A program made the position numbers and the translations under genes. A DNA stretch of 64,000 nt from Agarivorans litoreus (GTDB taxonomy: Bacteria > Pseudomonadota > Gammaproteobacteria > Enterobacterales > Celerinatantimonadaceae), in the NCBI RefSeq assembly GCF_019649015.1, contig NZ_BLPI01000001.1, forward strand, positions 3,033,001 through 3,097,000. Reading direction: 5' to 3'. Of this stretch, positions 44,095-49,676 are shown one piece after another (the stretch's first letter is position 1; every line of letters begins with the position of its first letter). The notes under the pieces were generated by a model. That model was not told where the DNA came from. It worked only from the letters and a program-made list of their open reading frames with translations, and did no database searches.

Positions 44095-44126
44095 AAATCA
44101 AAACCTTTTCAGTGTGTTATGATATA

Positions 44127-44155
44127 GAGCGAAGCAGTGGTGCTTCGCTTTTTTT
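44127..44155 (+). terminator. gcvP terminator
   Basis: AGCGAAGCA and TGCTTCGCT pair over a short loop, followed by seven T. Confidence 0.9.
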
Positions 44156-44177
44156 GGCTAGGGAGTAGCCTCAGACA

Positions 44178-44194
44178 TTAAAGTTACTCTGACC
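44178..44194 (+). repeat. Left copy of inverted repeat flanking the NACHT gene
   Basis: TTAAAGTTACTCTGACCC region, 14 identical bases plus CCC shared with the inverted copy at 47969-47985. The pair encloses the split NACHT gene. Confidence 0.65.
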
Positions 44195-44706
44195 CTTTTT
44201 GTTTTAACTGAGGTTAACGAATACAAGATATAGGACAATAATTTACGTTAACACCATATTACGCTATTGCATAATAATAAGACTTGCTTCATCTTGTTCG
44301 AACTAGAATCAACGTTGCTATACAAGAGCTAAATTATGTTAGAAGCCCTAGCCAGTTTGATGGAGAATGACCTCTCTAAAAACGTACTTGTCCCATTATT
44401 TCGTCAAATTTATGGTTGTCGGGTGGTGTTTACCGGCGGGGGATGTGAAAAAGGGCGAGACATAATAATTTATCAAAAAGATCCCCTTGAGCAAGACAAA
44501 TTTATCGGTGTGCAAGTAAAAAAAATACATGCCACACCAAACTCTCATTCAAAAAGTTTTCAGCAATTATTAACCCAGTTGAGTCAAATGACTTTCGAGC
44601 CAGCTATTTGTCCAGACAGCGGTAAAGAAGTAATGCTTTCTCAGTTGATTTTCGTAACCCCGTTCGAAGTCCCAGAGAAATCATTCGACACCCACTCAGG
44701 AGCCTA

Positions 44707-45807
44707 TATACCCAATCAACTTGAAGATGCAGGCTTGAGTACCTGAAAATTATCGTTCACTCGAGATGCCAAGGAGCCTGCGATCTCCTGAAGAGTCACA
44801 GAAAAAAATTGGTCTATCGCCGCCTTAAAGTCTCGTTTATTTTTGAAATAAACGTTGTTTCTCGACTTCTCGTTCATTACCTTCCATAACCGCTCTATTG
44901 GGTTGAGGTTTGGACTGTAAGGTGGGAGGTAATGCAATTCAATATTAAGGACAAACGCGGCATCTTTGACTAAGTTACTACGGTGATATCCCGCACCATC
45001 TAAAATGATATGAAGCTTATGGCCTAACGGGTAACTCTCTCTGAGCTTACAGAAAAAACGAACAATATTTTCACTGTTAATGCTTTCGTAATCGCTAACA
45101 ACCGTCGCTCCAATATCGGATAAATTCAGTGCGCCAATAAGGTTTAACCGACTACGGTTGCCCGTTGTTTCAATCACTTTTTCTTGGCCTGTACGTATCC
45201 AGCCATGGGTGATTTTGGTCGATAGCGTCGGGTGAACGGCATCGATAAACAATATCGATTCATCCTCGCCACAGCTTGTCTTTAGAGCTTCATAAGCTTC
45301 GATGAACGCCCGTTGTTTTGTCTCATCAAACTTGTGTGGAACGCCTTTCGGTTGCTTGTAGCTAAAACCATTGTGATGAAGCCACTTGTTCATACCAGAA
45401 ACCGTATAATCAAGTCCAAATGTCTCTTTAACGTAGGCGACAACTTGATGAGTGTGAGAATAGGTTTTCTCGGTCAAATGCTCGATTAGGTGCATGGTTT
45501 GAGTAGCAGAAAGTTTACTTTGGCTTCCGCCATTTTCGGGCTTAAGTTTTTCAGAAAGAACATAGTCGCTGAGATGTCGAGCGACTGTCGACTCGTGGAT
45601 GCGAAGGGCTTGAGAAATCATCACCTGACTCCAACCTTCAGAAGCAAGTAATACCGCTTTGATACGGTCTCGCACTCGACCATCGCGAGTGGAATCATGC
45701 ATCTGCTCGAGTTGCTGTTTCTGTTGAGGAGTCAGTATAATTTTCATGGTGTGTAGCATGATCCTCATTGACGAAAAAATCAATCACCTTCAATGATCAC
45801 GGGTATA
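44707..45807 (-). mobile_element. IS630-family insertion with TA target duplication
   Basis: The element is 44709-45805 (1097 bp). It is flanked by TA at 44707-44708 and 45806-45807. Its ends read TACCC on both sides, and with the TA make TATACCC; a second matching block TTGAAG.TG occurs 15-23 bases in. Insertion at TA and this length are typical of IS630. The element lies antisense to the interrupted gene. Confidence 0.9.
44716..45747 (-). CDS. IS630-family transposase
   Basis: From the ATG at 45747 the product is 343 residues; the open frame continues 12 codons further. N-terminal helix-turn-helix domains (about 1-110, e.g. RVRDRIKAVLLASEGWS) are followed by the DDE catalytic domain: LFIDAVHP (Asp), HIILDGAGYHRS (Asp) and PPYSPNLNPIERLW (Glu). 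It is full length with no frameshift, so the element may still be mobile. Confidence 0.94.
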   Translation of the reverse strand: MKIILTPQQKQQLEQMHDSTRDGRVRDRIKAVLLASEGWSQVMISQALRIHESTVARHLSDYVLSEKLKPENGGSQSKLSATQTMHLIEHLTEKTYSHTHQVVAYVKETFGLDYTVSGMNKWLHHNGFSYKQPKGVPHKFDETKQRAFIEAYEALKTSCGEDESILFIDAVHPTLSTKITHGWIRTGQEKVIETTGNRSRLNLIGALNLSDIGATVVSDYESINSENIVRFFCKLRESYPLGHKLHIILDGAGYHRSNLVKDAAFVLNIELHYLPPYSPNLNPIERLWKVMNEKSRNNVYFKNKRDFKAAIDQFFSVTLQEIAGSLASRVNDNFQVLKPASSS

Positions 45808-47968
45808 GAGATGTACTAAGAAAGGGAGTAACCATCATTGATGGGAAACGCCTTTTGTCGTTAATCGACAAACACAAGCCGGAATTGATTCGCGAGATAT
45901 CTGGGGATAGTGCTTATATCGGAGAAAAGATAAAGCCAGCTTTATCAAATAAAGCTTTAATGGATGCTCTTCACCTTGGAGATACAAAGGAACTTTGTGA
46001 TATCTATTGTGAGACTAAATTAGAGCTGGGCAATGATCGCGAACGCAATAATAAAGAACTAGTTAAGTATGATTACACAACTACAAAAACAACCATTAGC
46101 TCTGAAACGGTTGATAAAGCAACGGCTATGGAAAAATCCTTTACATTGTTAACAGGTGTTGAACTATATGAAAAAGATTCTTTATCATTATTTAGAGCTT
46201 CACTTACTAAAAAAGAACGTCTAAAAAAACAAATTAGCATTTTGTCGGATGAAATTATAAATATTGCTAATAAAGTAAGAGAAAAAATATCTAAAAGTTC
46301 GTTCGCTAAAGTTTACCCCAACGTAGCCAGCTCAGATTTTGATGATTTTATAAAATCTGAATATAGACATGTAAATTTGGGCCCTGATGAATTTTCTGAC
46401 TTTTCAAGTGAAGTCTTTGAAATTAAATCTATGATGGAAGGTAGAGGAAAAAAACGAGATGAAGTTGAGAAACTCAGAGGTCAAGATTCTCTTATTGAAA
46501 CTAGTGTAACCATTAATTATAACAGTAGCATCCTATGCCAGTTACTTAATGAGTCAATTGACAAGCTAGTTCATTATGAAAATACAACAATAACAGATAT
46601 TAAGGATTACTTGTTAATATCTCAAAAAATAGAATGTTTCTATAAAATCATTGAATCTATGAACTTAGATTTCAAGCAATCTTCAGAAGTTATACCAAGA
46701 ACTAGCAGTAAAGTGTCAATTACCGAAGTTTTCCAGTCCAGCTTAAATGTTATTGTATTAGGGGATGCGGGTTCAGGAAAAACGACTAACCTCCAAGTAT
46801 ATACAAAGTCGCTATTGGAGAGTTCCAAAAAAAACCTCGTAATTTACTTAACTCTCAACGACTTAGCTTTCTATGCTTTAAAATCGGACGAACGATGCTT
46901 GACCAAAGGGATTTGGTATTACTTAGCGGAATTGAGTGTTAACAACTTTTCATTTTTTACTTTAAAAGAGCATTTAAAGAATAAAAAAGTATGTTTGGTT
47001 CTTGACAGTATTGATGAAGCAGTTGTACAGCATGATTGGATCGTTTCATCTTTGAATGAGTTTTCAGTTTTATATAGCAACTGCCAAATCATTACATCCT
47101 CAAGGTTTACTGTTTCTGATCTACACACGTTAGGGTTCGTGAGCATCTCTTTATTACCATTTGACCGGGGGCAGAAAGAAGAGTTCTTTGAAAAGTGGTT
47201 CTCCGAGAGACCTGAGTTAGTTAAAGAAATTCTTTGTCATCTAGATAGTCGCCCAAAACTAGACAGGGTGATTACAAACCCTCTGTCTGCAACAATTATG
47301 GCTTCTCTTCAAGACTCGGCCGTACCTTTACCTAATACGGAAGCTTCACTATATAAAAAGAGGTTTGAGTTGCTCAGCGGTCTTTTCGACAAGTTCAAAG
47401 GTGTTAATCGAATGACTTCTTCACCGGAAGTCATTTTGAAGTGCAGTAGAGAGCTTGCCTATCATATGCATGATCGAAAGTGTAGAGAGCTTTGCAAAGA
47501 AGATATTATTGTTTTTCTCACCAAAAATTTACACGATGAAAGAATAGCCAATGAAGTATATGCTGAGCTTATAACACCATGTGAAATTCTGTTGGTAAAC
47601 CCAAATGGAAAATACGGTTTTGGTCATTTAAGGTTTCAAGAGTATCTAGCATCTGAACAACTAGTTAATCTTAGAAAAATAAGACTAGACAAAATGCTTG
47701 TTTCGTCTTGGTGGCACGACGTTTTCCTTCTGTATGCTCAACACGCATATGAAATTGAATGGTTAGTTGACTATGCGACAAATAACGAAATGACAAGAAA
47801 AACACATAAATTGTTGTTGAATATAACTTCTCATCGTCCTCCCGCTGAAGAAAAAAAACTAAATCAACGTATAGAAATTGCATTTAAGCAGGAGTTAGAT
47901 GGTTTACTCTATTAGATTATCCTATAAACTTTAGCTGCTCATTTCTGGAATGAAGCTAAAAATAGAGG

Positions 47969-47985
47969 GGGCAGAGTAACTTTAA
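47969..47985 (-). repeat. Right copy of inverted repeat flanking the NACHT gene
   Basis: GGGGCAGAGTAACTTTAA region, the inverse of 44178-44194. Beyond it, 47986-48164 has no ORF. Confidence 0.65.
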
Positions 47986-48164
47986 ATATCAGCCCTTTAG
48001 TACCTTGGTCTTATTGGGTTACCTGTTCTTTAAGTTACGTTATCATTCATTTTGTATTTTATTTAAAGGATGATTCAATCCCCCCTTTCATTTCAAACTC
48101 ACTTCCTGCCATTTTAGCATTCACTCCCGAAGCAGTAACATCTCTCAGATCAGGGGGCGCTTAC

Positions 48165-49676
48165 TTAAAAATCACTTATCACATTAAACGCTCTAAATTC
48201 GTCGTAGGCGTATTGGTCTGTCATGCCGCTGATGTAGTCGATAATCAGCCTTGTGCGGTAGTAAAACTCGCGACATTGTTCGTTGCCAAACTCATCGCTT
48301 ATGGGCTCTTCCGTCATGGCTTTTTGATAGGCTGCTAAATGTTTAGCCGGCAGCTTTTTGAATAGGCGCTGTATATAAGCAGAGCTTTTTTCTTTGGGTT
48401 TTGTGTTATCTACTAAGTATTCAAACTGGTCTTGGCTTAGCGCAAGTAGCGGTTGGTAACAGGCCATTAAGCCTGAGATAATTTGGTAGCCTTGTAGTTC
48501 GCGGGCTTCTACTTCTGGGTGGCAAAAGCAACGCTCTAGCGCGACGCTTTTAAAGGTTTCAACTATGAGGTGGTTTACGCTGCCATCTTCAATTAGCGCG
48601 CGGTTTAAGTTGCCTTGGTAAACCGCCTCTAAGTTTGCCACAAACTGATTTTTGGCATGTTCGGGCAAGCGTTGGTTTACTGCTACGCGTAGGTAAACAA
48701 AAAACATCGAGTCTCTTTCTTCATCACTCAGCTGTGGTTTTTTACTTTGGTGAGCAAAGTCGAGAATGGTGTCCATTTCTTTTGGTTTGCTGCAGCCATG
48801 TTCACTGCTTAGTTTGGCAAAGGTGGCTAATAGGGCGTGCTTTAGTTCTTTAATGCTCAGCACGCCTTTTTCTATGGCGTCTTCTAAGTCGGCAATGCCG
48901 TAAGACACATCATCGGCCGCTTCCATAATGTAAGAAAACGGCGAGCGGCAGAATTGGTCTATGTCTAAGCTATTGCGAATATCTTGAATGTAGTTTTGCT
49001 CGCTAAGGTAGTAACCTACCTTCTTTTTTAAGTAATTAAACGGTGCACTTTTATCTGGCTTAGCTTCAGTTCCGCAGCGGGTGTATTTGAGTATGCCAGA
49101 GGCTTGCGAGTAGGTGAGGTTGAGCTTTAATAAGGAGTGAATAAGCCGAATGCCTTGGGCGTTGCCCTCGAAGCTGACTAGATCTCGGTGAATCGCTTCT
49201 GGCAGAGTTTGTTTCGGTTTTTTGTTCTGGTCTTCATCTAACTCTGTTGCTTGAGAGCTTTGGTAAAGGCTATTGAGGTTTTCATTTAGCCAATCAATTA
49301 AGGCTTCTTCACCAAAGTGGCCAAAGGGCGGGTTGCCAATGTCGTGCATTAAACAGGACATTTCAACAATGCTTTCTAATTGCCGTTCTAGCCCTTTAAG
49401 TTGATAGCTGTTTTGTTCATCTACTAAGGCTTCGCAAATGAGCTGAGAAATATAGCGACCCACTTGCTGTACTTCTAAAGAGTGGGTAAGGCGACTGCGC
49501 ACTGCGGCGTTGCGCTCTAAAGGGAATACTTGGGTCTTTTGCTGCAAACGCCGAACCGCTGCGCTGTTAATAATGCGGCCTCGGTCGCTTTCAAACTTCT
49601 TTAAGTCGGCATTAAGATCTGGCTTAGCTGGGTAGGGCCGAGTACCGAGAATTTTGCTAGCGAAATTTACTGTCAT
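48165..49676 (-). CDS. dgt: dGTP triphosphohydrolase
   Basis: A 503-residue HD-domain enzyme matching E. coli Dgt (505). It removes the triphosphate from dGTP. Visible: FESDRGRIINSAAVRRLQQK, FPLERNAAVRSRLTHSLEVQ (first His), CLMHDIGNPPFGHFGE (HD pair, about 117-132), HRDLVSFEGNAQG and FSYIMEAADDVSYGIADLED. Dgt-like enzymes can limit phage replication by draining dGTP; others tune dNTP pools. It is transcribed toward the NACHT gene but separated by about 250 bp. Confidence 0.96.
   Translation of the reverse strand: MTVNFASKILGTRPYPAKPDLNADLKKFESDRGRIINSAAVRRLQQKTQVFPLERNAAVRSRLTHSLEVQQVGRYISQLICEALVDEQNSYQLKGLERQLESIVEMSCLMHDIGNPPFGHFGEEALIDWLNENLNSLYQSSQATELDEDQNKKPKQTLPEAIHRDLVSFEGNAQGIRLIHSLLKLNLTYSQASGILKYTRCGTEAKPDKSAPFNYLKKKVGYYLSEQNYIQDIRNSLDIDQFCRSPFSYIMEAADDVSYGIADLEDAIEKGVLSIKELKHALLATFAKLSSEHGCSKPKEMDTILDFAHQSKKPQLSDEERDSMFFVYLRVAVNQRLPEHAKNQFVANLEAVYQGNLNRALIEDGSVNHLIVETFKSVALERCFCHPEVEARELQGYQIISGLMACYQPLLALSQDQFEYLVDNTKPKEKSSAYIQRLFKKLPAKHLAAYQKAMTEEPISDEFGNEQCREFYYRTRLIIDYISGMTDQYAYDEFRAFNVISDF

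Follow-up and report, generated by a model that had tools for sequence, protein, structure and literature searches.

A probable NACHT-type antiphage gene with an N-terminal nuclease domain, split by an IS630-family element in Agarivorans litoreus

What did the two open reading frames between gcvP and dgt in Agarivorans litoreus encode before an insertion sequence (IS) element separated them, and what may their product have done? The locus lies in a stretch of 64,000 nucleotides of contig NZ_BLPI01000001.1, hereafter the window, in which coordinates are given unless another locus is named; the genome amounts to 4.34 Mb in 3 contigs. Two open frames with an IS element between them lie in the interval from the stop codon of gcvP (44094) to dgt on the minus strand (48165-49676), and we take these neighbors to be gcvP and dgt (dNTPase-like) from their sequences. 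An initial annotation, made from the letters alone, had seen here a single nuclease-NACHT defense gene interrupted by an IS630 element. Our reading, drawn from sequence comparison and from analogy with tested proteins and held at a probability of roughly 0.75, is that the locus carries a horizontally acquired NACHT (bacterial NLR-related) antiphage gene, inactivated by the insertion of the IS630 element.

The element is present in four copies in the genome, each at 100% identity (rounded) over 1097 bp (bit scores 1979, 1979, 1979 and 1975), and all four run from TACCC to GGGTA with TA on either side. Its 355-residue minus-strand frame encodes a transposase of the IS630 family (NCBIfam NF033545, E 4.6e-77; Pfam DDE_3, E 1.4e-36). 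The features by which this family is recognized, namely a DDE transposase, the TA duplication and terminal inverted repeats, were all found, the repeats being imperfect, with agreement between the ends at 16 of the first 30 bases. Matches to the element occurred in 288 plasmid records, 148 of them from Salmonella, while among the matches listed (eight plasmid records) all were from Vibrio, at 85.9-87.5% identity over the full length. Because the copies are near-identical and the two gene pieces are otherwise open, the insertion into the gene was probably recent. The restored gene would have 826 codons, a count obtained by arithmetic from the coordinates. The element sits inside the nuclease domain, ahead of the final strand predicted for it (residues 133-135 of the model). 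Since the nuclease domain is thereby cut short in the one piece and the other, the NACHT piece, has no effector, loss of function is the simplest reading, and the split copy in A. litoreus is probably dead.

An intact orthologue spanning the join was found in Vibrio lentus 10N.261.46.F8, where one frame of 856 residues (L064:6267-8837) runs in register through the position of the break, which bears out the single split gene of the initial annotation. It was located by scanning genome_contigs with a two-row profile of the C-terminal region, built from the window protein and a stub in genome G072. Three of the 221 stretches matched encode a relative, i.e. those of V. lentus (55%), Neiella marina J221 (34%, on the same contig as the G072 stub) and a Candidatus Scalindua metagenome-assembled genome (33% over 78 residues). 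The last of these (L066) is NACHT-like, appears by eye to be without such a nuclease, and was set aside. The V. lentus protein is 57% identical to the N-terminal (N) piece (70/123) and 43% identical to the C-terminal (C) piece (310/722 columns). Residue 123 of the N piece corresponds to V. lentus residue 126, and residue 6 of the C piece to residue 134, which puts the first C-piece residue at 129; the two positions in between are accounted for by N-piece residue 124 and one codon cut by the insertion, and the two alignments therefore meet in register across the break. The Neiella stub (L012:7412-8290, same contig as L065) is a second truncated copy, a C-terminal open frame of 291 residues, and adjoins a TniQ gene (E 1.3e-12) as well as a stretch that matches TniB below the cut-off (E 0.0033). 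When the Neiella genome was searched with C-piece residues 1-430, but not with the nuclease piece and with no positive control, nothing matched at E up to 1.

The nuclease domain is recognized by its residues and its predicted fold. All seven rows of alignment A2 share E10, D42, Q60 and K62 of the N piece, and the last three of these are the active-site residues that the initial annotation had picked out. A second alignment, A9, consists of four rows, namely V. lentus, a plasmid protein from Enterobacter kobei, a Pseudomonas putida plasmid NACHT-NCH1 protein and a Deinococcus protein; in all four of these the Asp and Lys are invariant and the Gln is not. A model of the domain from six rows had a predicted local distance difference test (pLDDT) score of 78 and a predicted template modeling (pTM) score of 0.75. 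When this model was used in a fold search, eight of the 11 best PDB matches were restriction endonucleases (FokI, MspJI, AspBHI, EcoO109I), with Card1, Cap4 and Avs4 lower in the list and non-nucleases, e.g. acetyl-CoA carboxylase, mixed in from rank 13. The predicted nuclease fold and the conserved residues together thus point to an N-terminal effector, as found in bacterial NACHT proteins. The only PDB sequence matches of P0004, to designed armadillo proteins over the nuclease region (E 6e-5 to 2e-3), were taken as spurious.

The NACHT domain (PF05729) scored 30.5 bits in the C piece and 30.8 bits in V. lentus, over the cut-off of 26.7, and carries both Walker motifs, as expected of a bacterial NACHT protein. 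Profile A9 matched the NACHT region of NLRC4 in PDB (E 4e-6), and in NCBIfam the C piece weakly matched EruA, an antiphage NACHT protein, at a score far below the cut-off (22.5 vs 1000 bits). The order of nuclease followed by NACHT, as originally proposed, is thereby upheld. Compared with PDB sequences, the C piece matched only two papillomavirus E2 chains (E 0.42-0.47), which were regarded as chance. After the NACHT domain no Pfam sensor domain was found in the window or in V. lentus, and instead a compact conserved C-terminal region follows, in agreement with the initial annotation; in V. lentus about 250 residues remain after the domain. Identity between the window and V. lentus is 51% in the NACHT domain (88/171), 60% in most of the C-terminal part (119/198) and 35% in the last tail (13/37), and falls to 24% (50/208) in the helical middle, which had no PDB match by sequence. 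This fast-evolving helical module could be sensor-like, yet a loosely constrained linker would look alike.

Defense by nuclease-NACHT proteins is known. The bNACHT25/32 proteins, which belong to clade 6, are described as having an N-terminal PD-(D/E)XK nuclease, NACHT, NCH1 and a catalytic D48 that is needed for phage protection and DNA degradation (PMC12169576), and the general layout of bacterial NACHT proteins is given as tripartite, with effector, NACHT and C-terminal sensor (PMC12169576, PMC10952713). As comparator for this known type we used the Enterobacter kobei plasmid protein of A9 (WP_200923474.1, 753 residues), in which Mrr_cat, NACHT and NCH1 are all over cut-off and position 48 is an Asp; its domains and this residue fit the bNACHT25/32 type. 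Its neighbors WP_057688290 and -291 are also, circumstantially, adjacent in number to WP_057688292 of bNACHT32. By way of this comparator, the gene studied here resembles bNACHT25/32 in encoding a nuclease with Asp at the D48 position and then NACHT in one polypeptide, as D45 of V. lentus, equivalent to D42 of the window, aligns with D48 in A9.

It is conceivable, if unlikely in our judgment, that the gene is a divergent member of clade 6 whose NCH1 was lost or changed past recognition. Both domains of the V. lentus protein are homologous to those of the comparator and stand in the same order (nuclease 26%, E 4e-8; NACHT 24%, E 2e-15), whereas NCH1 (PF22728), which scores 127 and 135 bits in two clade-6-type comparators, had no Pfam match in the window C piece or in V. 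lentus. Moreover, about 210 columns between nuclease and NACHT in A9 are occupied by V. lentus only, and a C-terminal stretch is shared by the other three rows and missing from V. lentus. A tree was made from the NACHT domain and the following region, with 12 rows out of 14 prepared (L022 was dropped as having no blastp hit and L019 as its stretch was too short). In this the window and V. lentus group together (100/100) on a long stem, separate from the clade-6-type pair (100/99); deeper support is weak and comes with a long-branch warning, and the two pairs are still not joined when L023 is removed. Forcing the pair together with the two clade-6-type rows gave a p-value of 0.058 in the approximately unbiased test (p-AU), and 0.136 with the Deinococcus protein added, so that the tree neither establishes nor firmly excludes a place in clade 6. 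An undescribed clade, as the initial annotation had suggested, is thus plausible from the strong support for the pair, while the p-AU of the clade 6 grouping stops it short of proof. What distinguishes the pair from the known type is that it has no NCH1 match, carries a variable helical region between nuclease and NACHT and forms a lineage of its own in this small tree.

Among other relatives, the nuclease-then-NACHT order is shared by a plasmid protein of Deinococcus aetherius (WP_264777828.1, 828 residues), in which an N-terminal nuclease, 31% identical to the window N piece, and a NACHT-like region follow each other in one frame. It differs in having no long helical middle, a longer C-terminus and a NACHT domain below the Pfam cut-off (20 vs 26.7 bits), and, unlike the window pieces and V. 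lentus, it has a match to PDC-S60, a candidate family of PADLOC (E 1.2e-13). The same catalytic residues are also found in stand-alone nucleases of 326-341 residues on plasmids of Escherichia, Enterobacter, Rhodococcus, Ensifer and Mycobacterium, with similar ones on viral contigs, but these have no NACHT and possess an extra N-terminal half of their own. In the plasmid search with the N piece, 21 out of 72,556 records matched at E up to 1, and the seven that were opened contained five such stand-alone proteins, one record without an annotated gene (CP057205.1) and the Deinococcus fusion. Profile A2, which is dominated by the stand-alone family, was run against 349 genomes from the phylum and matched the own genome and four others, where the frames, at 334-390 residues, are too short for a nuclease-NACHT fusion; it also matched five loci in viral contigs, all four of those opened being stand-alone proteins. 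The genes next to this family of roughly 330 residues on the five opened plasmids include VapBC (two), AAA-ATPase or ATP-binding genes (three) and helicases (two).

Single-protein scans of genome_contigs and viral_contigs with the C piece gave no relative. In whole genomes, the C piece matched in 3 of 197 genomes of relatives (the own genome, G072 and a marginal one), in the same three among 394 genomes of the order, and in 7 of 369 genomes of the class, samples which overlap. Besides the own genome, the class search returned six matches covering only NACHT and the following part, and the frames in question had no N-piece match beyond one of E 8.3. The N piece itself was found in the 369 class genomes only in the own genome and as one marginal match containing two stops (E 0.009). 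Among 227 genomes of the genus of G031, the V. lentus protein had matches in two. One of these, at 100% along 856 residues, is V. lentus to judge by its identity, and it shows that the search works; the other is a protein of 301 residues that has just the nuclease domain (28% over residues 4-152). None of 50,697 phage records matched, and no match to the NACHT part was obtained in viral contigs (C piece; profiles A4 and A6).

The interval between gcvP and dgt (44095-48164; loci L051-L056) appears to be a variable slot in the genus. The two genes are neighbors in four out of six same-genus genomes (G001, G002, G004 and G005), with 2.4-4.7 kb of differing content between them; in G003 no more than partial similarity was seen on the gcvP side, and G006 has other genes there. 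Defense-type genes were found in the slot in three of the six, i.e. a reverse transcriptase (retron-type-V-like) matching PADLOC RT_V (1.2e-145) in G001, a DUF6575 protein (3e-43; PD-T4-10_B 2.9e-6) in G004, along with a protein of 612 residues that weakly matches PD-(D/E)XK (E 0.0046), and a DUF4365 protein (4.1e-19; PADLOC Aga REase 1.3e-12) in G005. Among the proteins scanned in G002 and G003, a part of the frames there, no defense family occurred. A truncated DUF6575 (PD-T4-10_B-like) gene (L064:8988-9374; 1.4e-20), of which the G004 slot has the fuller copy, also lies beside the V. lentus gene. The split gene is AT-rich, its GC content being 0.41 in the N piece and 0.35 in the C piece, with 0.45 for the window.

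In the window the split gene lies between TTAAAGTTACTCTGACCC and an inverted copy with one substitution. The exact 14-base core CAGAGTAACTTTAA has only two sites in the whole genome, one in the left repeat and one at 47972, and its reversed control has none. The motif stands inverted on both sides of the slot in the window, G001, G003 and G004 (up to three substitutions), occurs as two same-direction copies in G002 and as one weak copy (four substitutions) in G005, and was not found in the G006 slot or the V. lentus locus. Against the uniqueness of the repeat, a C-for-A variant is present elsewhere in the genome as one exact and two one-mismatch copies. Counts of the motif with two mismatches were at or below control in G000-G003 and G006 and above it only in G004 and G005, and only near-exact copies are therefore meaningful. 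Because related motifs cluster around a Y1_Tnp gene (PF01797, 8.7e-15) in G005 (L106:3082-5370), the motif is read as being of the type formed by repetitive extragenic palindromes (REPs) and REP-associated tyrosine transposases (RAYTs), which are described as pairing with each other (PMC3686654). Cargo in the slot may be exchanged through these inverted repeats.

We infer an antiphage role from the homology to tested proteins and from the defense-type neighborhood. A conflict system aimed not at phage but, for instance, at plasmids, conjugation or a rival element would be in keeping with the occurrence of related stand-alone nucleases on plasmids, but is quite unlikely, as bNACHT25/32, the closest kind that has been tested, is reported to protect against DNA and RNA phages (PMC12169576).

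The initial annotation had also considered an Avs-type protein, and this we have discarded. Avs proteins have a different NTPase class and a different C-terminus with a long repeat (TPR-like) sensor. An Avs/AVAST protein like Avs4, which has a nuclease of Mrr type and a repeat domain that binds phage proteins, would likewise combine a nuclease with a STAND NTPase, and the Avs4 structure is among the fold matches of the nuclease domain, but weakly so (rank 19, E 0.088). With a Pfam match over cut-off that is to NACHT, 856 residues being short for a long C-terminal repeat domain, and no match of the window pieces in PADLOC, which presumably contains Avs models, this assignment is very improbable. 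That the halves are natural separate genes with an element between them by chance is scarcely credible, since, although both are open frames today and stand-alone nucleases of 301-341 residues occur on plasmids and, within the genus of G031, in one genome, the V. lentus frame is continuous through the break, the element lies within the nuclease domain, and the Deinococcus protein also joins nuclease to NACHT in one frame.

Several observations weigh against our reading of an inactivated NACHT antiphage gene. The N piece had no Pfam match (nor any in NCBIfam, PADLOC or among PDB sequences), and Mrr_cat in V. lentus remained below the Pfam cut-off (17.7-19.2 vs 21 bits). In the fold search only the first FokI entry passed E 0.001 (3e-4), and the TM-scores of the top 11 matches, normalized by query length, were low (0.28-0.51), so the assignment of a nuclease fold owes as much to the conserved residues as to the fold match. 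None of the PADLOC models matched the window pieces at E up to 1, and the V. lentus protein had a single weak match, to mad8 (E 0.0071). While the nuclease domain gave a usable structure prediction, that of the whole V. lentus protein on four rows (pLDDT 49.6, pTM 0.29) was unusable beyond the predicted helical middle; the helical module and its role therefore rest on sequence, and the helical middle of the initial annotation is retained as predicted helical at low confidence. The nuclease-NACHT lineage is also rare in the searched genomes, and no description of it or experiment on it was found in the literature searched, which did not include the main bNACHT survey.

Table 1. Positions in the window of the split gene, the inserted element and the flanking repeats.
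Feature	Position	Strand	Remarks
Left 18-base inverted repeat TTAAAGTTACTCTGACCC, bounding the cargo	44178..44195	-	
N piece (P0001), PD-(D/E)XK (Mrr-like) nuclease domain	44336..44707	+	124 residues, stop-free
D42, predicted catalytic Asp	44459..44461	+	Aligned with D48 of bNACHT25/32-type protein
Q60	44513-44515	+	
K62	44519-44521	+	
IS630-family element	44709..45805	-	TA on both sides; transposase frame 44716-45783
C piece (P0002): end of nuclease domain, helical middle, NACHT, C-terminal region	45810..47915	+	701 residues and stop
Post-nuclease stretch and helical middle	45894..46697	+	Larger part is the fast-evolving region (24% to V. lentus)
NACHT domain	46749..47207	+	Pfam PF05729, residues 314-466 of P0002, over cut-off
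Walker A, GDAGSGKT	46761..46784	+	From translation
Walker B and following acidic residues, LVLDSIDE	46995..47018	+	From translation
Compact C-terminal region after NACHT	47208..47912	+	Without NCH1 match; 60% identical to V. lentus over most of its length
Right inverted-repeat copy	47968..47985	+	One substitution

As we infer its action, the intact protein, as in V. lentus, would consist of a PD-(D/E)XK nuclease, a variable helical module, a NACHT switch and a compact C-terminal region, and would be kept inactive at rest. A phage product or a phage-caused change would be sensed, with the helical module as the favored site, possibly together with the C-terminal region. Binding of ATP by the NACHT domain would then lead to oligomerization, upon which the clustered nuclease domains would cut DNA and halt the infection, probably killing the cell.

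What sets the locus apart may be the unusual order of effector nuclease, rapidly diversifying sensor and NACHT switch, with no dedicated C-terminal sensor, in combination with a genus-wide defense slot between gcvP and dgt whose cargo is bounded by repeats of the Y1-transposase type and possibly exchangeable; we put this forward as a tentative proposal that may well prove wrong. If true, the lineage would test whether a sensor can be placed ahead of the switch, in the gap between effector and NACHT, the latter a switch module that also occurs in animal immune receptors. Being intact and of modest size, the V. lentus gene lends itself to direct tests, and the gcvP-dgt slot is a place to seek more defense genes in the genus. 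Lastly, the split copy described here and the transposon-adjacent stub in Neiella are consistent with frequent loss of genes of this kind.

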